Shown here piece by piece: positions 10,149 to 55,824 of a stretch of DNA of 64,000 nucleotides. The DNA comes from Okeania hirsuta. Lineage in GTDB: Bacteria; Cyanobacteriota; Cyanobacteriia; Cyanobacteriales; Microcoleaceae. Each line of letters begins with the position of its first letter. Within the stretch, counting starts at the first letter, position 1. The notes below the pieces were generated by a model that saw only the letters and a program-made list of their open reading frames with translations, made no database searches and had not been told where the DNA came from. Made by a program: the position numbers and the translations under genes. The stretch covers positions 1-64,000 of the forward strand of contig NZ_RCBY01000003.1 of the NCBI RefSeq assembly GCF_003838195.1. The letters are read 5' to 3'.

Positions 10149-13100
10149 ATGAACACAAAACAAAACCAAAATTATCAATATCAAGTAGGAGGAAGTTTAC
10201 CTGCTGATGCACCTAGTTATGTGAAACGAGAAGCAGATGAAAATCTTTATCATGCCCTCAAATTAGGAGCATTTTGTTATGTGTTGAACTGCCGACAAAT
10301 GGGAAAGTCAAGTTTAATGTTACGTACTAAGGCCAGATTAGAAAAAGAAGGGTTTGCCTGTGCTGTAATTGACTTAACTGATGTGGGTAGTCAAGAAATT
10401 AATGTCAAGCAATGGTATCGGGGTATTATTCAAGAGTTGGTTAGCACTTTTGACTTGAGTATTAATCGGCGAACGTGGTTAAAAGAAAGAGAAGATTTAT
10501 CCCCTGTACAACAATTTAGAGATTTTTTAAGAGAAGTTTTGCTGCGAGAAGTTGGGAAAAATACTGTCATTTTTGTTGATGAGATAGACAGTTTAATTAG
10601 TCTAGATTTTCCCACCGATGATTTTTTTGCTCTGATTCGAGCTTGCCATAATAAACGGGCAGAAAATCCAGAATATCAACGATTATCTTTTGCTTTATTT
10701 GGGGTGGCAACTCCTTCTAATTTAATAGCTGATAAAACTCGGACTCCTTTTAATATTGGTAGGGCGATAGAGTTAACAGGTTTTAGTTTCGCAGAAGCCA
10801 AAGATTTCCTAACTCCTGGCTTAAAAAATAGGGTAGAAAATGCAGAACAGGTATTAGCTGAAGTTTTAGAATGGACTGGTGGGCAACCTTTTTTAACTCA
10901 AAAGTTGTGTCAAATAATTGTTCAAAATAATAATAGTAGTACTCCCGATGTGGGAGAGTTAGTTCGGACTTATATTATTAATAATTGGGAATCTCACGAT
11001 AACCCAGAACACTTACGGACAATTCGCGATCGCGTCTTGGTAAATGAAAAACGAGCAAGTCGGTTGTTGGGTTTGTATCAGCAGGTTTTAATCTCGTCTT
11101 ATAAGGGAATAAGAGCAAATGACAGTTCTGAACAAATGGAACTCCGCCTCACAGGTTTGGTTGTCAAATGTCAAGGCAAGTTACAGGTCACTAATTATAT
11201 CTATCAACAAGTATTTAATCTTCAGTGGGTAGAACAGGAGTTAGCCAAGTTACGACCTTACTCTGAGGCGTTTACTGCTTGGCAAAAGTCGGGATGTCAA
11301 GATGAGTCGCGACTGTTGGGAGGTAAAACTTTAGCTGATGCTTTAGTGTGGGCGGGGGATAAAAGTTTGAGTGTTCTCGACTATCGCTTTTTGGCTGCTT
11401 CTCAGGATTTGGAGAAACAGGCTATTGAAGGAGAAAAGTTGGAAATGCAGGTAAAGTTGGATGCTCAGTCGAAGGTAAATCAGATACTAGATGAGGCAAA
11501 GCGGAAAGTAGAAAAGTGGCTGTGGATAAGTTTTGGACTATTGGCACTATCCTTTATGACAGCAGCTTTTACTGGAGTGATTTTTTTGCGAGCAAGTCTC
11601 GAGGTTGCGGAAGTGGAAGCAGTGCGTAAAAGTATTACTTCTCAATTATTTTTTAATTCAAATCAGTATAGGGAAGCAATCCTGCAAGCTTTAAGAGCAG
11701 CAAAACAACTACCGAGTCCTAATATCATATTCCAACCCCAGGCTAATAACAGGAAGCAGATAAAAGGTGCTTTAAGGCAAGTCATAATATCTATCTATCC
11801 TCAAAGATACCGAGAGCGTAATCTTCTGAGGGGGCATGAGGATTCGGTCAATGGTGTAGCATTTAGTCCCGATGGAGAGACTATTGCTTCTGCAAGTGAT
11901 GACTATACAGTGAAGTTGTGGAACCGTCAGGGGAAATTATTGCAGACTCTCACCGGCCATGAGAGTAGGGTCAATGGTGTAGCATTTAGTCCCGATGGAG
12001 AGACTATTGCTTCTAGCAGTGGTGACAAAACAGTGAAATTGTGGAACCGTCAAGGGAAATTATTGCAGACTCTCACTGGTCATCAGAGTTGGGTCAATGG
12101 TGTAGCATTTAGTCCTGATGGAGAGACTATTGCTTCTGCAAGTCGTGACAATACAGTGAAGTTGTGGAACCGTCAGGGGCAATTATTGCAGACTCTCACT
12201 GGTCATCAGAGTTGGGTCAATGGTGTAGCATTTAGTCCTGATGGAGAGACTATTGCTTCTGCAAGTCGTGACTATACAGTAAAATTGTGGAACCGTCAGG
12301 GGAAATTATTACATACTCTCAGTGACCATAAAGATTATGTCAATGGTGTAACATTTAGTCCTGATGGAGAGACTATTGCAACTGCAAGTACCGACAATAC
12401 AGTGAAATTGTGGGAGCGTCAGGATAAAGTCTTGGGTACTCTCAGTGACCATAAAGATTATGTCAATGGTGTAGCATTTAGTCCTGATGGAGAGACTATA
12501 GCAACTGCAAGTGCTGACAAGACAGTGAAATTGTGGAACCGTCAGAGGAAATTATTGCAGACTCTCACTGGTCATCAGAGTTGGGTCAATGATGTAGAAT
12601 TTAGTCCTGATGGAGAGACTATCGCAACTGCAAGTGCTGACAAGACAGTGAAATTGTGGAATCGTCAGGGGAAATTATTGCAGACTCTCACTGGTCATAA
12701 GCATGTGGTCAATGATATAGAATTTAGTCCTGATGGAGAGACTATAGCAACTGCAAGTCGTGACTATACAGTAAAATTGTGGAACCGTCAAGGGAAATTA
12801 TTGCAAACTTTCACCAAGCATAAGGATTTCGTCTGGGATGTAGCCTTTAGCCCTGATGGAGAGATTATAGCAACTGTAAGTTATGAATATACAGTGAAAT
12901 TGTGGAACCGTCAAGGGAAATTATTGCAGACTCTCACTGGTCATGAGAATTCGGTCTATGGTGTAACATTTAGTCCTGATGGAGAGACTATTGCTTCTGC
13001 AAGTGCTGACAAGACAGTGAAATTGTGGAACCGTCAAGGGAAATTATTGCAGACTCTCACCGGCCATGAGAGTTCGGTCTATGGTGTAGCATTTAGTCCC

Positions 13101-13661
13101 GATGGAGAGACTATTGCTTCTGCCAGTGGTGACAAAACAGTGAAATTGTGGAACCGTCAGGGGAAATTATTGCAGACTCTCACCGGCCATGAGGATTGGG
13201 TCCGTGGTGTAGCATTTAGTCCTGATGGAGAGACTATTGCTTCTGCTGGTTATGATAAAACAGTGAAATTGTGGAATCGTCAGGGGAAATTACTGCATAC
13301 TCTCATCGGTCATGAGGATTGGGTCAATGATGTAGCATTCAGTCCTGATGGAGAGACTATAGCTACTGCAAGTGCTGACAAAACAGTAAAGTTATGGAAC
13401 CAGAAAGGACAATTATTGAGGACTCTGGAGGATCATCAGAGTTGGGTCCATGGTGTAGCATTTAGTCCTGATGGAGAGACTATTGCTTCCGCTGGTTATG
13501 ATAAAACAGTAAAATTGTGGAATGGTTGGAAGTTTAGCTTCCATGAGTGGGCTTGCAACTGGATGCGCGACTACCTAGAAAATAACCCTGATGTGAGTGA
13601 AAGCGATAAACATTTATGTGATGGTGTTGGCGACGGGAAGTCAGAAGTCAAAAGTAAGTAA
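10149..13661 (+). CDS. AAA_35-like ATPase - TM helix - 14 WD40 repeats
   Basis: A 1170-residue protein. Residues about 15-345 are an AAA_35-like domain: Walker A variant CRQMGKSSL at 47-56, Walker [11 protein letters not shown] near 138-148, and [11 protein letters not shown] coiled linker is followed by one membrane helix at about 456-480. Residues about 558-1128 hold 14 WD40 repeats of 41 residues (123 bp), enough for two seven-bladed propellers. The repeats are almost identical except at fixed surface positions. There is a short Cys-containing tail. This is a STAND-type receptor layout: the propellers would recognise a ligand and the ATPase would switch state. It may be co-transcribed with the HTH-AAA gene upstream. 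The target and the effector are unknown. Confidence 0.85.
11826..13544 (+). repeat. 14 tandem 123-bp WD40-coding repeats
   Basis: Nearly invariant nucleotide words in every unit (TTTAGTCCTGATGGAGAGAC; ACAGTGAAATTGTGGAACCG). Variation is concentrated at unit positions 5-7, 9, 10, 12, 22, 25 and 27. Such high identity implies recent duplication or homogenisation by recombination. Confidence 0.9.
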
Positions 13662-15752: not shown

Positions 15753-16902
15753 TCTCAATATATTTTTATCAAAATAATTGGGTCTAAAACCCCGCCTTTT
15801 AAGGCGAAATCTTTTTGGAAGGGGGCTCAAATTCCCGTTACAAAAATAACTTCTAACTGCTGACTTCTGACTTCTGACTTCCTTAATGGCTTCCCTGGTT
15901 CTCATCAAAACTTTTTTTCCTTATTTCAACTATTGTTTTATAATTATTACTAAAAAAAATAAAATTTATTTCCATCACTTTCATCATACTTAAAATTTAG
16001 AGTTATAGCAGAAGAAAGAAGGAAGAAGTAAGAATAAGAAATCTGGCGTTGTCTGAGTTTTCAGCTTTAGTTCTATCCTAACCTTTGCTTTGACTGCTAT
16101 AATTTTTTTTAATATCGCCGAAAAATTAAGCTTTAAAGCCTCTACCCATCAAAGATAAAAAAGAAAAAAAATTTTTTTTAATATCGCCGAAAAATTAAGC
16201 TTTAAAGCCTCTACCCATCAAAGATAAAAAAGAAAAAAAATTTTTTTTAATATCGCCGAAAAATTAAGCTTTAAAGCCTCTACCCATCAAAGATAAAAAA
16301 GAAAAAAACATCTTTTTTGAAGGAGAAGTAATTTCAGTTATCAGTGATCAGTTATCAGTTAGCCTCCTCCGGAGGAACTGCGCCCTTCAGCAATAAAGAG
16401 GCTTGATATAAGGAATAGTCTCTTTTTTTTATCCCTTTAAAAAGAGAGGCGCATACCCACAAATTTTCGGTAATTGTTAATTATTAATTGTTGAATTCTT
16501 TCATCCTGACTAAAGAAATAAGGTATCAAACCTGTCCTTTCAAGAAGATAAAAAAAGAAAATTCAGTATTTCAAGCCTCAAGCTTAAACCTGAGATACTG
16601 ATAACTGTTAAATTTTAACTGAAATTACCCTAGATTCCACTAAAATATTAGTCTTCAAATAAAAATACTTTATAGTTCCATAATACCAATAAAATATTTA
16701 ACTCTATATTGAATTTTTTAGCGCCCAAAATTCAACAATATTTTTATTTACTTAAAACATCACAAAATCTACTTTTAGATACTAATAACCATACTATTAT
16801 TTTTATGTTGACAAGAAAATATACTTTAAAAATCAAAAATAAAAATAAAGAAATCTATTCCGATACAGAAATTTAAAAGCAAAGCTCAAACAAGAAATAA
16901 AA
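15753..16902. other. long non-coding stretch before folD
   Basis: Holds CTTCTGACTT-type simple repeats (about 15,855-15,885), the 69-bp x3 repeat, a TTATCAGTTA-type repeat near 16,340 and AT-rich sequence up to folD. No gene seen. Confidence 0.6.
16101..16308. repeat. 69-bp tandem repeat, three copies
   Basis: Each unit runs from a T-tract through AATATCGCCGAAAAATTAAG and CCTCTACCCATCAAAG to an A-tract, so the T8 and A8 ends can pair. The word AATATCGCCG recurs at 16111, 16180 and 16249. The copies are virtually identical, so the expansion is recent. Confidence 0.85.
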
Positions 16903-40364: not shown

Positions 40365-40740
40365 TTTGTGCTGAAATTCAAAGCAATATCTCTGTTGGAA
40401 CAGGGTACTATAGCTCATCCACTATAGTTGGTTCAATTTCAAAATGTGTTCCGGAACAGTTTTCTATTTTTGGTTATTTATCGCAACAGGTTACTATCGC
40501 AGATTAGCTATAGCTGTCTCAACTTCAAAATATGTTCCGGAACAGTTTTCTATTTTTGGTTATTTATCGCAACAGGTTACTATCGCAGATTAGCTATAGC
40601 TGTCTCAACTTCAAAATATGTTCCGGAACAGTTTTCTATTTTTGGTTATTTATCGCAACAGGTTACTATCGCAGATTAGCTATAGCTGTCTCAACTTCAA
40701 AATATGTTCCGGAACAGTTTTCTATTTAGTGAGAGGGATT
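40365..40740. repeat. 86-bp tandem repeat, about four copies, truncating the next gene
   Basis: CCGGAACAG recurs at 40451, 40537, 40623 and 40709, exactly 86 bp apart. A diverged fifth unit precedes it (GGTACTATAGCTC at about 40,405). Each unit holds palindromes GTTCCGGAAC and AGCTATAGCT. The last unit runs into the stop of the trypsin-FGE gene. Confidence 0.9.
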
Positions 40741-49549: not shown

Positions 49550-50454
49550 CTGGGATGTTTATCGTATAGCTAAGGAGTCAGGAGTCAGAACTCAGGAGTC
49601 AGAATTCAGGATTTAGTAGTTAGAAGTAAAGAAAGGATTTGAATAGCATGAATTTTTAAATTTGTATTCAAATAGACATCTGGTAAAAATCAGAAATAAA
49701 ATCAATTCTTATCCATAAATTATCAATTATTCCCCTCCCAGGAGGGGATCGGGGTGGGTTCCCTGTTGCTTTCCGGGGCTGTTGCCTGTTGCCTCTTTTC
49801 TGGAGATGTCTAATAGAATATCTGTATTAAGATCAGGAGTCAGAGATCAGGAGTCAGGAGTTAGCTATTGGTAGTGGACCGAGACACCTAAAAATGTAGG
49901 TTGGGTTTATCCTAACGGATAAGCTCCGCTAACACTTCGTTCTACCCAACCTACGGTTATTAATACCAATTTTATTTTCATCTAAATATAGCGCTGTGCG
50001 CAGGCAACAGCTCCGGAAGGCAACAGCTCCGGAAGGGGGAATAAAAAACTGATAATATAAGGCTTTTAGCTATTGGACACCTCTTGTCATTTGTAAATAT
50101 GCCAGCGCACATTGCTATAAGTAACCAAGATAACAGTTTTTTTTAGTAGTAAATGGTATTTAAAGTATCGTTTTCATCAAAAAATTAGTCTGCTCTGCTT
50201 CCTCTCTAATCCCTCTGCCTTCTTCTTTACCTTCATCAATATTGGTTATGTCGAACGCCGGATTTAGCGTAGTATGCGATCGATAATATTACTCAAATTC
50301 GGCAAAAATATAAAAAGAGTATAAACAATAAGAGGGGAATTAAGAATATTGATAAAATAAAAATAACTTGAAAGTTAAACTTGGATAATCATAAAAAAAA
50401 CAACATATTTTTGTTAAAAATACTAATTTATTAAAAATTGTGCTTCAAACTATT
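49550..50454. other. gene-poor region with MITE and repeats
   Basis: Holds CAGGAGTCAGAACTCAGG repeats, CCCCTCCCAGGAGGGG (49,733-49,748), a GTAGGTTGGGTT...AACCCAACCTAC hairpin (49,896-49,963) and a family C MITE. No gene seen. Confidence 0.5.
49989..50117. mobile_element. MITE, family C copy
   Basis: 129 bp: TAGCGCTGTGCGCAGG ... GCCAGCGCACATTGCTA, flanked by TA (49987-49988 and 50118-50119). It contains two copies of GGCAACAGCTCCGGAAG. It shares most of its interior with 61301-61411. Confidence 0.75.
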
Positions 50455-50703
50455 AGTGATACCTCCGTTAGAGCAGCACTGAATGCCATTGAATCTGAAT
50501 CAGCAAATGTTTCAGAAAAAATTCAGATTCAATGGCATTCAGTGATACCTCCGTTAGAGCAGCACTGAATGCCATTGAATCTGAATCAGCAAATGTTTCA
50601 GAAAAAATTCAGATTCAATGGCATTCAGTGATACCTCCGTTAGAGCAGCACTGAATGCCATTGAATCTGAATCAGCAAATGTTTCAGAAAAAATTCAGAT
50701 TCA
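50440..50703 (+). pseudogene. displaced 5' end of the TPR gene
   Basis: From a GTG at 50440 the frame reads MLQTISDTSVRAALNAIESE then NVSEKIQ, continuing as QWHSVIPPLEQH and a stop. The first part is identical to residues 4-27 of the downstream protein. It is probably the ancestral start of the TPR gene, cut off by the tandem expansion. Confidence 0.45.
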
Positions 50704-50787
50704 ATGGCATTCAGTGATACCTCCGTTAGAGCAGCACTGAATGCCATTGAATCTGAATCAGCAAATGTTTCAGAAAAAATTCAGATG
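50455..50787. repeat. 86-bp tandem repeat with internal 21-bp inverted arms, about 3.9 copies
   Basis: The unit starts at 50455, 50541, 50627 and 50713. Each full unit holds perfect arms CTGAATGCCATTGAATCTGAA split across 50479-50499 and its inverse at 50522-50542 (shown here without the inverse). The last unit merges into the TPR gene. Copies are essentially identical. Confidence 0.93.
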
Positions 50788-51696
50788 CTGATAGAAATGG
50801 CAAATGGGTTGCAACAAAAACCAAAAGACCCTAAACAACTGGATAATGCTATTGGCCTATATCAACAAGCGATAGAATTATCCAGCAACGATTATCCTCT
50901 GCTGCAAGCAAGAGCATTGGTAGGAATGGCAACAGCCTTAAGAGCTATGCCAGGAGAAGGACCCGATCTATTGCTAGAGGCAAGAGAAGCTTATGAAACT
51001 GCCCTAGAAATATTAAGGGAAGAAGGAATACCTGAAGAAGTTGCAGAAGCAGAAATGAATTTAGGCTTGGTATTACAAGCATTAGTTAGTTTTAACTTGG
51101 CAACAATGAAACAGGTAATAGAAGCATATCAGCGGGGGTTACTAATATTTACCGCAGATAAACACCCACAAGAATATGCCATATTGCAGAATAACATCGC
51201 GATCGCTTATCTCTCGATGACCCTATCTCCAGAAAGAGAGGGTATGCGACAAGCAATGGCAGTACAATCATTTGAGGAAGCATTAAAGGTAGTTAACCTC
51301 ATCGAACATCCCAACGAATACGCGATGTTGCAGAACAATCTGGCCAATGCCTTACAATACCTCCCCAGTCTGCATCCGATAGACAATAATTTGCGGGCAT
51401 TGACTGCATACAATGAAGCCTTGAAAGTCCGTACAGCAAAAGATACACCATTAGAGTATGCAGCCACTATCTCTAATAAAGCCAACCTGCTATACAACTT
51501 ACCAGATAATCCAAAACATCCAGAAACAGGAAATCAGCAAAATCTACTCCAGGCAAAAATGCTCTATGAAGAAGCTCAAGCAATTTTTTGTCAGTATAGC
51601 CAAGTAGAAAGAGCAACAATAGTTTCCGAAGCATTAGCAGCAGTAGAAAGCGAACTATCACTTTTTGATTTTGACTCAGCAGTTACTACTAGATAG
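50704..51696 (+). CDS. TPR protein of the hydrogenase small-subunit maturation type
   Basis: A 330-residue all-helical protein with TPR-like units throughout (AIGLYQQAIELSSNDYPLLQ, AREAYETALEILREEG, VIEAYQRGLLIFTADKHPQE, SFEEALKVVNLIEHPNEYAML). The present ATG at 50704 lies within the last 86-bp repeat unit, in the inverted-copy part. The reading frame to it is otherwise intact, and no ribosome-binding site is obvious. It is followed at 13 bp by a small membrane protein, and the NifU-Rieske gene lies 1 kb on. This set resembles the extended hyp region of Nostoc (asr0689-alr0693), proposed to mature HupS. Confidence 0.75.
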   Translation: MAFSDTSVRAALNAIESESANVSEKIQMLIEMANGLQQKPKDPKQLDNAIGLYQQAIELSSNDYPLLQARALVGMATALRAMPGEGPDLLLEAREAYETALEILREEGIPEEVAEAEMNLGLVLQALVSFNLATMKQVIEAYQRGLLIFTADKHPQEYAILQNNIAIAYLSMTLSPEREGMRQAMAVQSFEEALKVVNLIEHPNEYAMLQNNLANALQYLPSLHPIDNNLRALTAYNEALKVRTAKDTPLEYAATISNKANLLYNLPDNPKHPETGNQQNLLQAKMLYEEAQAIFCQYSQVERATIVSEALAAVESELSLFDFDSAVTTR

Positions 51697-51709
51697 GAGA
51701 ATAAACAAA

Positions 51710-52000
51710 ATGAGCGGTCTAATTACCGTTGTCAATACTCTGATTACAAACTTGGAAGCTATACCCAGCTTTCAAATTTTTATCAGTAACTTAGTTACTG
51801 GAGAGATTACAATACTAACAGCCATATTCTGGCTAGGAGTTGCTAGCGGAATTTCGATTATTGCTGGTGCTATTGGTGGAATATGGTTGGCAGGAAAAGA
51901 TTTAGGTTATAGTCTAGCTGCCATGATTGGTGGATTGTTTGGCCCTGCTGGTGTGATTCCGGCAGTTATTGTTGGCTTGGCAATTTTAAAATTTGTTTAG
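51710..52000 (+). CDS. small membrane protein
   Basis: 96 residues, two to three membrane segments (TAIFWLGVASGISIIAGAIG, IGGLFGPAGVIPAVIVGLAI). AGGAG precedes the ATG at 51710, just 13 bp after the TPR gene's stop, so it is co-translated. Glycine-rich membrane proteins lie in the same place in the hydrogenase maturation set of heterocystous cyanobacteria. Function unproven. Confidence 0.75.
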   Translation: MSGLITVVNTLITNLEAIPSFQIFISNLVTGEITILTAIFWLGVASGISIIAGAIGGIWLAGKDLGYSLAAMIGGLFGPAGVIPAVIVGLAILKFV

Positions 52001-52004
52001 GAGC

Positions 52005-52110
52005 TTTGACTGCCCTGAGTGTGGGATATCTATAGACCGCGATCTGAATGCGAGTATTAATTTAAAAAATGCGGTCCGCTTGACCGTCAATGCCTGTGTA
52101 TGAGTAACCG
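52005..52110 (+). pseudogene. TnpB C-terminal relic
   Basis: CPECGISIDRDLNASINLKN: the zinc-ribbon CxxC and the RuvC-III Asp of an IS605-type TnpB, different from the two longer copies. Only about 30 codons remain. Confidence 0.65.
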
Positions 52111-52753
52111 CCAACGGTCTCAGTTGTTTGCATAGCATTCCGTAGGAAAGCAGGAAGTAAACATTAAAATGTCACTAATTATGCGGTGCGACCCCGCGTC
52201 GGCGCAAGACGCAAGTGGTCAGACCCCGCGACGATGCCAGCTCGCTTGCGGTCGGAACCCGCGTCGGCATCAGACGCAAGGGAATGCCGACCAAGAGAGG
52301 GAATGCTGACCAAGAGAGGGAACGCGCACCAAGAGAGACGTTTTATATCGGTTTTATGAAGCAGCAAGACATTGATTTAGGTAAGATGCACAGATGTTGA
52401 GCGTCTCCCTCGCTGATGGATTCGTATATCAAATCTGCTGCATCATATTTGTAAATCTTTGAAAAGATTTTAGTGGTTGGCAACGACAGGTTTGACAATC
52501 AGGTAGTCCTACTTGTGTAATGGTAGATGGGGATGAACAATGGTGCTTCATGGGAGCAAGATACGAGCAAGGAAGCAAGATGCTTCCACTGCTTTTGTCC
52601 TTGACCAAAATAATTAAAATAGACCACCATTACAATGCATCACTACCTAAATGTTTGAGTATTTGTTACAAACTTCAAACCATGCAATGAACATAAATGA
52701 ATATATTCGTGCAACCCTACAATAACTAACAGTTGAAAAAAGGATAAACAATT
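52111..52753. repeat. GC-rich interspersed repeats
   Basis: 52,185-52,340 is GC-rich (AGACCCCGCG, GTCGGCATCAGACGCAAG, three copies of GACCAAGAGAGGGAA-type words) and is shared in reverse with 34,030-34,090. ATGCTTCCACT repeats lie further on. No gene seen. Confidence 0.5.
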
Positions 52754-52978
52754 ATGCTAGAAGTCGGTTGGTTTAGTACCAAATTATTATTCAAAGGAAA
52801 ACTACTACGAAATCCATTTTATTTTTTCAAACAAGTAGCCATAGGTACTTCTTTTGGTGCTCTATTACTAATAGTAATGGCACAAATGGGAACAACACTA
52901 TTGTTTCCAATTATTATTTCTAGTTTGGCAACTGGAATCTCTATGCCATTTTTGCTGAAAGATTTGAAGTTGCAATAG
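52754..52978 (+). CDS. small membrane protein, maturation-set type
   Basis: 74 residues: a short amphipathic start (LEVGWFSTKLLFKGKLLRN), then two membrane helices (GTSFGALLLIVMAQMGTTLL, IIISSLATGISMPFLL). It lies 16 bp before the NifU-Rieske gene and shares its strand. It resembles the small membrane protein found next to NifU-like genes in the hyp region of N2-fixing cyanobacteria. Function unknown; coupling to HupS maturation is inferred. Confidence 0.7.
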   Translation: MLEVGWFSTKLLFKGKLLRNPFYFFKQVAIGTSFGALLLIVMAQMGTTLLFPIIISSLATGISMPFLLKDLKLQ

Positions 52979-52994
52979 GAAGAAAATAATAAAA

Positions 52995-53861
52995 ATGACT
53001 CAAGCCAAACTTCCCTTGCAAGAGTCTGTGAGTCTAGAATCTCTAGTATCTGATATTAATCATTTTGAGCAGGTGATCGCTCATTGGGATGAAAATCAAA
53101 AAGTAGTGGTTGAAGGGTTGAAAAATGCCATAGAAGCATTACACAAAGAAGCTTTAACCCGATTAATTCGTAGTGTTAAACAGGAATCTATGCCAGCATT
53201 GCGTCAGGCAGTGCAAGATGAAGTAGTTTATAGTCTACTGCGCTACCACGAATTGATTAAACCACCTACGCCTTCTCTAGAAATCAGGGTTCAACAGGCA
53301 TTAGATAGAGTGCGTCCAGGTTTGCAAAGTCATAATGGCAATGTGGAATTACTTGCCATAAAACTACCGGATACCGTGGAAGTAAAATTAGTGGGAAACT
53401 GTAGTAATTGTCCTGCTTCAACCTTAACCATGAAAGATGGAGTCGAGCAGGCAATTAAAACCCACTGTCCGGAAATCAAAAATGTGGTTTCGGTCAATAC
53501 TCCAGTTAGTGGAAAAACAAGCAATACTATTGCCAGTCCCTTTGCTGCACAAGAGGAAACAGGTTGGGTTGCTTTAGCAAATATTGACCAGATACCGAAA
53601 GGTGGTATTTTAGCTGTTGATATGGATGGGTTGAAATTAATTTTGACTCGTGTGGGTAATGATGTTATTGCCTATCGTAATAGTTGTAGTCATTTAGCCA
53701 AACCTTTAGATGAAGGAGAAGTAATAGAAGGTATTCTCACTTGCCCATTTCATAACTTTAAATATAACTTAGCAACCGGACAATGTTTGACTGCTCCAGA
53801 AATGACCTTGCAACAGTATCCGGTAACTATAAGAAGCGGTCGAATTTTGATTAAGTTTTAG
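52995..53861 (+). CDS. NifU C-terminal domain - Rieske ferredoxin fusion
   Basis: A 288-residue protein. An N-terminal helical part (about 1-90) is followed by a NifU-like domain (RPGLQSHNGNVELLAIK; GNCSNCPAST with Fe-S cysteines C136 and C139) and a Rieske domain from about residue 190: C231-x-H233 (NSCSHLAKPL) and C250-P-F-H253 (CPFHNFKYNL), a complete [2Fe-2S] site. Such NifU-like proteins are proposed to deliver Fe-S clusters to the hydrogenase small subunit. The upstream small membrane gene ends 16 bp before it. It is cytosolic, as no signal is present. Confidence 0.9.
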   Translation: MTQAKLPLQESVSLESLVSDINHFEQVIAHWDENQKVVVEGLKNAIEALHKEALTRLIRSVKQESMPALRQAVQDEVVYSLLRYHELIKPPTPSLEIRVQQALDRVRPGLQSHNGNVELLAIKLPDTVEVKLVGNCSNCPASTLTMKDGVEQAIKTHCPEIKNVVSVNTPVSGKTSNTIASPFAAQEETGWVALANIDQIPKGGILAVDMDGLKLILTRVGNDVIAYRNSCSHLAKPLDEGEVIEGILTCPFHNFKYNLATGQCLTAPEMTLQQYPVTIRSGRILIKF

Positions 53862-54381: not shown

Positions 54382-55343
54382 TCAATCTTCAATGCGATCG
54401 CGCACTTGACCTTTTTCTGCATTCTTCTCTAAAAACTCAATTATCTTGCCAGAAACATCTACTCCTGTAGCTGCTTCTATTCCTTCTAAACCGGGAGAAG
54501 AATTCACCTCCATCACCACAGGGCCATGATTAGAGCGTAATAAATCTACCCCAGCAACTCTCAACCCCATTGCTTTAGCTGAACGGGTAGCAGTTGAACG
54601 TTCTTCAGGAGTTAATTTAATTTTTTCTGCTTTACCACCCCGGTGCAAGTTGGAGCGAAACTCACCCTCAGCTCCCTGTCTTTTCATAGATGCTATTACT
54701 TTATCTCCTACTACAAAACATCGCAAGTCTGCACCACCTGCTTCTTTAATAAATTCTTGAACTAAAATATTAGCATCCAAGCCACGAAAAGCTTCAATAA
54801 CTGACTTAGCCGCTTGATAAGTTTCGGTTAAAACTACTCCGATTCCTTGAGTTCCTTCTAATAATTTAATGACCAAAGGAGCACCTCCCACGGTATTAAT
54901 TAAACCATCAATATCTTTAGTAGAATTAGCAAACCCAGTTACAGGCAATCCAATTCCATCTCTAGCTAATAATTGCAAACAATGTAATTTATCGCGAGAC
55001 CGAGAAATGGCTTGAGAAGGATTTGGGGTAAAAACTCCCATCATTTCAAACTGTCTAACTACAGCGGTACCATAAAATGTTTTAGAAGCACCAATGCGAG
55101 GAATTATAGCATCAAGTCCTTCCAAAGGTTCACCTTTATAAATAACTTGATGCGAGGAATTATAGCATCAAGTCCTTCCAAAGGTTCACCTTTATAAATA
55201 ACTTGAGGCTTCATCGAAGTAATATTCATATAACAGCGCAAGTAATCAATAACTTGCACTTCGTGACCTTGTTTTTCCCCTGCTTCTACCAATTTTCTAG
55301 TTGAATAAAGACTTGGTTCAGTTGATAAAATAGCGATTTTCAT
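54382..55343 (-). pseudogene. rimK: RimK-type ATP-grasp glutamate ligase, broken by a 56-bp duplication
   Basis: Reading from 55343, [20 protein letters not shown] leads to [20 protein letters not shown]. There a perfect 56-bp tandem duplication (55,096-55,207) shifts the frame and ends the ORF ([15 protein letters not shown]). The rest continues in the other frame as [40 protein letters not shown] (ATP-grasp lysine), [20 protein letters not shown] and [13 protein letters not shown]. RimK adds glutamate to ribosomal protein S6 or makes polyglutamate. Removing one 56-bp copy restores the full ligase. Partner protease gene rimB overlaps upstream. Confidence 0.85.
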
Positions 55344-55347
55344 TTTA

Positions 55348-55824
55348 TTATTTTCCAACATTTTTTTTGTCCTTTTTTTGACTAATTTTTGCCTTTTTAT
55401 CTAAATAAGATTTGCCTGGGTTAATTAAGAAAATTCCCCGCACAGCTTGTCGTCCCAATAACATTCTAAATCCCATTAATTCCCGATTAGTTAATGTTAA
55501 CTCAACTTGCCATTTTTTTTGCATTAAATTTACTTCTGTCAGAATCACAGGGCGTAATTCTGCTTGCCCGCTAGAACTACGAACATTACGTTCATCTATT
55601 AATTCTGCTTCAGCAATTACTGTTTGATTCGTATCTCGTTGTTGGGGATTAATTTTAAATTTTACTCTTGGTTTACCATCAATTTCAAAAGTCTCAATAT
55701 CAAAAGCGTGTAAACTAGAGGTACGAGCGCCAGTATCGATTTTTGCCTTGATTTTAGTAATGCCAATTTCGGGTAATGCTATCCATTCCCGCCAGCCAAT
55801 AATTGGTAATTCTTGATGTTTCAT
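55348..55824 (-). CDS. rimB: RimK-associated retropepsin-like aspartic protease
   Basis: A 158-residue aspartic protease-like protein: [13 protein letters not shown], then the active-site [18 protein letters not shown] and strand motifs RRPVILTEV-like and LLGRQAVRG. The DTGA motif matches the RimB family (DUF785/RimK-ATP-grasp partner). In Pseudomonas-type systems it modulates poly-glutamate added by RimK. Here it lies immediately upstream (4-bp gap to the rimK start), so it forms an operon with a now broken rimK. Tail rich in Lys. Confidence 0.85.

Follow-up and report, generated by a model that had tools for sequence, protein, structure and literature searches.

Among the closest described systems are the chimeras of phi29 MDA and the small inverted triplications of yeast. 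In single-cell MDA, 85% of chimeras are inversions (PMC1855051), and phi29 chimeras have overlaps that peak at 6 nt and lie mostly at 5–8 nt, with a chimeric distance that is typically 250–300 nt (PMC4595205). Hairpin self-priming has been judged minor in MDA. The small inverted triplications of yeast have 6-nt junctions and 30-nt spacers (PMC13334657).

Our analysis of a 64,000-nt stretch of the Okeania hirsuta genome (the window; on contig C223 of an 8.79-Mb genome in 716 contigs, the nearest named relatives of which are Okeania metagenome-assembled genomes) reveals an 86-bp tandem array with inverted arms at the start of a TPR gene, with the geometry of a two-switch fold-back event. We conclude, with a probability of roughly 0.7, that the array is an artefact, specifically a fold-back chimera from amplification or library preparation that was kept as a loop by the assembler. 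The features of the locus, and of a weaker second case in the window, are as follows:

50440–50454, plus strand: ancestral beginning of the TPR gene, with the GTG start and the L-Q-T-I codons, upstream of the array
50455–50786, plus strand: 86-bp tandem array, 3.86 identical copies (TRF period 86, 100% matches, score 664)
50477–50500, plus strand: direct arm of the first unit, 24 nt, 100%, CACTGAATGCCATTGAATCTGAAT (inverted-repeat search)
50521–50544, minus strand: inverted arm, of which 12 nt are inserted and 8 nt and 4 nt overlap the direct copies on its two sides
50704–51696, plus strand: TPR-protein ORF as assembled, 330 aa, MAFSDTS..., with its ATG from the last inverted arm
55094–55206, minus strand: weaker second case, an exact 56-bp duplication (TRF, 2.0 copies, 100%)

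TRF and the inverted-repeat search agree on an 86-bp repeat with inverted arms at the gene start, as the original prediction had it. In particular, each unit consists of 74 nt of the TPR gene's own 5′ end and 12 nt of inverted copy, and the array exceeds a single unit by three extra units, or 258 bp, the figure that had been predicted. The arms are 100% complementary, are located 20 nt apart, and are present in every unit; they had rightly been called perfect, and their length is 24 bp in place of the predicted 21 bp. Of 1,460 segments of matched length from this genome, none contains a perfect inverted repeat of at least 20 bp and 1 contains one of at least 16 bp, which excludes a chance origin of the 24-bp arms. 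A search across the whole genome places the array at a single locus, and a dispersed palindromic element was rejected on that ground. The coordinates and sequence of the array are confirmed as correct in the assembly; whether the organism carries it is another question.

Other repeats in the window include a second 86-bp array (40422–40727; 3.6 copies, the first of them diverged, and no fold-back arms), which is probably a genuine older tandem repeat whose shared 86-bp period is coincidental; a 69-bp array (16101–16318) with three identical copies and a 16-bp A/T palindrome at the joint; and a 123-bp tandem repeat of 13.7 copies, with a consensus that is consistent with a WD40-type repeat protein (11835–13522).

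Comparison with orthologues reveals the ancestral state of the TPR gene. The nine nearest orthologues (from Okeania, Hydrocoleum, Microcoleaceae, and Trichodesmium) have a GTG at the equivalent of 50440, mostly as GTG-CTT-CAA, and read V/M-L-Q-T-I-S-D-T-S, with MLQTISDTS, MIQTISDTT, or a close variant at the N-terminus. Specifically, in three Okeania orthologues with 94% identity, and in those of Hydrocoleum, Okeania, a Microcoleaceae, and Trichodesmium with 77–86% identity, GTG-CTT/ATT/CTG-CAA-ACT-A/CTT runs straight into the coding sequence, with in-frame stops or no ATG upstream of the GTG. Nostocales orthologues have an ATG at the equivalent place and begin MTPSITDS or similar. The repeat is absent from the orthologues in Okeania, Trichodesmium, and Nostocales, and in the homologue alignment, which had been proposed as a refuting test, no orthologue compared, repeat-free ones included, starts MAFSDTS. 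Since the nine nearest orthologues share a repeat-free 5′ end, GTG 50440 is the ancestral start; the comparison thus bears out both the predicted older start and the predicted derivation of ATG 50704 from the inverted copy. Four differences clustered in the arm relative to SIO1I7 proved to be ordinary: SIO2B3 (L035) has identical letters.

As assembled, the ORF from GTG 50440 is 42 codons long and ends within the second unit, and CAATGGCATT, within the inverted arm that closes each unit, means that the last copy always gives an in-frame ATG. The resulting 330-aa protein is 94% identical to orthologues from residue 3 onward and has weak Pfam matches to TPR_12 and TPR-S, both just under the cut-off. 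The living strain most likely lacks the insert and still starts its TPR gene at GTG 50440. A real and functional array, in which three hairpins and overlapping leader ORFs would serve as a translational switch or a length-variable regulator of the TPR gene, is very improbable: the predicted fold of 351 nt of transcript (−148 kcal/mol) has three long stems, with all in-array ATGs, 50704 included, within the stem arms, and leader ORFs of 20–42 codons terminate inside the array, but no relative has the array, its identical copies carry no sign of selection, no evident ribosome-binding site precedes ATG 50704, and unrelated genes bear the same kind of insert.

The gene order TPR gene, orf51665, NifU-Rieske gene is kept in nearly all of 34 loci from Oscillatoriales and Nostocales, and a HycI hydrogenase protease gene is upstream or close only in Okeania/Trichodesmium and a few others of the 34. 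The suggested link to hydrogenase maturation is weak and not specific, the near-constant partners being orf51665 and the NifU-Rieske gene. In the window, this conserved trio occupies 50704–53861 and comprises the TPR gene, a gene for a small hydrophobic protein (51665–52000), and a NifU-Rieske fusion; it is shared by Okeania, Trichodesmium, and Nostocales.

With the empty site taken as the ancestor, and with repetition of the unit giving the array, the insert fits a two-switch fold-back event exactly, with an inverted tract of 24 nt, overlaps of 8 and 4 nt, and a loop of 20 nt. We infer that the event occurred in vitro, with phi29 amplification, for which fold-back chimeras with ~6-nt overlaps are well documented, as the best-known source of such products. 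In the proposed mechanism, a nascent strand ending ATTCAGAT would leave its template while the DNA was being amplified or made into a library, fold back on itself, pair with ATCTGAAT 20 nt upstream (8-nt overlap, 20-nt loop), and copy ~12 nt from its own upstream part in inverse orientation; the strand would then return to the original template, re-annealing at AGTG (4-nt overlap), 74 nt upstream, and recopy the same 74 nt. A simple inverted chimera would be a dead end in the assembly graph and would be trimmed, while a product returning to its own start would form a closed loop, which the assembler would walk one to three times, with the walk count set by coverage. We think that the copy number of 3.86 is unreliable; loop walks set by coverage would make it a value estimated by the assembler instead of a measured one.

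From the predicted sequence of template switching followed by tandem amplification, the two-switch geometry stands; an event in the organism is not supported, the insertions being confined to one assembly and single-copy chlH being broken, and neither is a tandem amplification to four copies established, since a graph loop in a short-read assembler could yield such a count. A mixed origin would be a real single fold-back event with a copy number inflated by the assembler, or a minority allele among many chromosome copies. The perfect 86-bp repeats extend over 332 bp, longer than common short reads, and filamentous cyanobacteria can be polyploid, but a mixed origin would leave the many loci hit in this assembly alone unexplained, and we regard it as highly unlikely.

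A survey of 1.44 Mb of the same genome, window included (~16% of the genome), revealed further fold-back insertions. Perfect inverted arms of at least 14 bp are present in 10 of 73 tandem arrays (period up to 200), versus 2 of 1,460 matched control segments (Fisher p ~2e-12); matched segments were used as the baseline, unit rotations being unsuitable since they contain the partner arm. Nine insertions whose arms reach 17 bp or more are clear direct-inverted-direct cases (the window array, L087:10024, L104:19792, L107:8983, L109:5685, L121:4818, L127:5745, L133:3395, and L147:15194). Six of these nine can each be explained in full by one two-switch event (overlaps of 2–8 nt), and the two-switch loops across the fitted cases are 20–38 nt. 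The direct copies are mismatch-free in every clear case, so that none looks old. Some triplet-search matches (AGGACTTACGCA, ACCCAACCTACA, and the like) look like dispersed repeats and were left uncounted. Weaker cases include the 56-bp duplication in the window, which frameshifts a RimK-like ATP-grasp gene into ORFs 54382–55125 and 55104–55361 (minus strand) and has a 9-nt inverted tract across its joint (switch overlaps 5 and 3, loop 27); it may be an artefact of the same kind.

The nine insertions in 1.44 Mb, against no clear direct-inverted-direct insertion in 0.94 Mb of three congeners (12-nt seed search), give the restriction to one assembly that is expected of chimeras, and the same 12-nt seed search, run on 0.72 Mb from other cyanobacteria, gave none. 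If equal rates are assumed, the probability that all nine fall in this genome is 0.011 versus the congeners and 0.001 versus all controls. The assembly is not enriched in ordinary tandem arrays, with 54 per Mb here versus 124 in the congeners.

Most clear insertions lying in genes break the reading frame. Frameshifted genes are chlH, an AAA-ATPase gene, a flavoprotein gene, a PKS gene, a CIA30/epimerase-like gene, and rimK; in-frame fold-back insertions are present in mrdA (L133:3395–3622, 42 aa) and in nadB (L127:1–121, 22 aa), the contig of which begins inside the fold-back repeat. In chlH, which encodes Mg-chelatase H, a 95-bp fold-back insertion is located in the first codons (L104:19792–19965, G000:C2). 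No other full-length Mg-chelatase H gene is present in the assembly; a second match, on contig C279, is a distant homologue (38%) that is also present in the congeners. The chlH ATG now leads to a ~48-aa peptide, and the first start in the main frame is a TTG inside the conserved N-terminus; in the congeners, the gene is intact. Mg-chelatase H is required for chlorophyll, and a phototroph without ChlH is implausible; the assembled allele therefore cannot be the main one in the strain. The loss of the chlH start and the frameshifts in most of the genes hit show the indifference to gene function, indispensable genes included, that is expected of chimeras.

We favor an artefact because the fold-back class is present only in this assembly, its copies are identical, reading frames are ignored, and chlH is broken. 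A slow evolutionary process is disfavored, since older, diverged examples and cases in congeners would be expected. Our confidence is tempered by several points: the loops of 20–38 nt are shorter than the distance typical of phi29; hairpin self-priming has been judged minor in MDA; the geometry also fits the small inverted triplications of yeast; the insert in the TPR gene leaves a usable ORF; the estimated genome completeness is high (99.99%); and whole-genome amplification is undocumented for this genome.

A real recent burst, in which frequent replicative fold-back template switching in the strain or in a mutator culture would have produced small inverted triplications genome-wide, is an unlikely but appreciable alternative. 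At the TPR gene, one event would have been amplified to four copies by slippage, with the inverted arm supplying the new ATG; the last unit brings an in-frame ATG at any copy number, so the gene would survive. The overlaps of 2–8 nt and the loops of 20–38 nt match the small inverted triplications of yeast with a rad27 deletion (PMC13334657), and the array has the direct-inverted-direct order and the microhomology at both joints of that class, but loss of a FEN1-type nuclease is not found: the 5′ nuclease domain of PolA, the nearest bacterial FEN1 counterpart, scores above the cut-off, SbcD is intact, and both genes are present with open frames, indicating no obvious mutator defect and leading us to reject a PolA 5′ nuclease or SbcD defect as a mutator cause, though a defect may lie in some other gene. 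A burst is further opposed by the absence of diverged older cases in the survey and of any case in the congeners, by the destroyed chlH start and the disregard of reading frames, and by reports that such structures are lost by slippage in E. coli. Somewhat more doubtful again is a strain whose replicative fold-back switching is frequent enough to fill its genome with dozens of recent small inverted triplications, one or more of which would have given a gene, in place of its start codon, a new one derived from the antisense of its own coding sequence. A real burst would be a rare bacterial example of its kind.

If the array is an artefact, as we consider probable, a public genome of near-full estimated completeness holds fold-back insertions, nine in one sixth of its length, that truncate or frameshift genes and imitate template-switch evolution. 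An easy screen would look for identical direct-inverted-direct copies that occur in one assembly only and that hit genes such as chlH.

Phi29 MDA inverted chimeras (Lasken & Stockwell 2007, PMC1855051; PMC4595205) arise when a displaced 3′ end primes on the opposite strand close by, where a few bases are complementary, are dominated by inversions, and have overlaps, like those here, of ~5–8 nt; they usually have a single inversion and an intervening deletion, on a scale of hundreds of bases, whereas here two switches fall within ~100 bp with loops of 20–38 nt, in a genome without documented amplification. Library-preparation chimeras of the PDSM model (PMC10908179) likewise join a strand to its nearby inverse by short complementarity, but they appear at low frequency, as single-inversion reads rather than as direct-inverted-direct loops in an assembly. 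Small inverted triplications, DUP/IN/DUP (PMC13334657), have the same direct-inverted-direct order, with ~30-nt spacers and ~6-nt junctions, but are known from cancer genomes and from yeast without rad27/FEN1, with a duplicated part of median 148 bp, whereas one case here stands as four tandem copies. Short template-switch mutations (PMC8794818, PMC7954356), like the insert here, copy the reverse complement of nearby sequence in one event to give a perfect hairpin; they typically replace sequence in place, whereas here 74 nt are duplicated because the second switch lands upstream.
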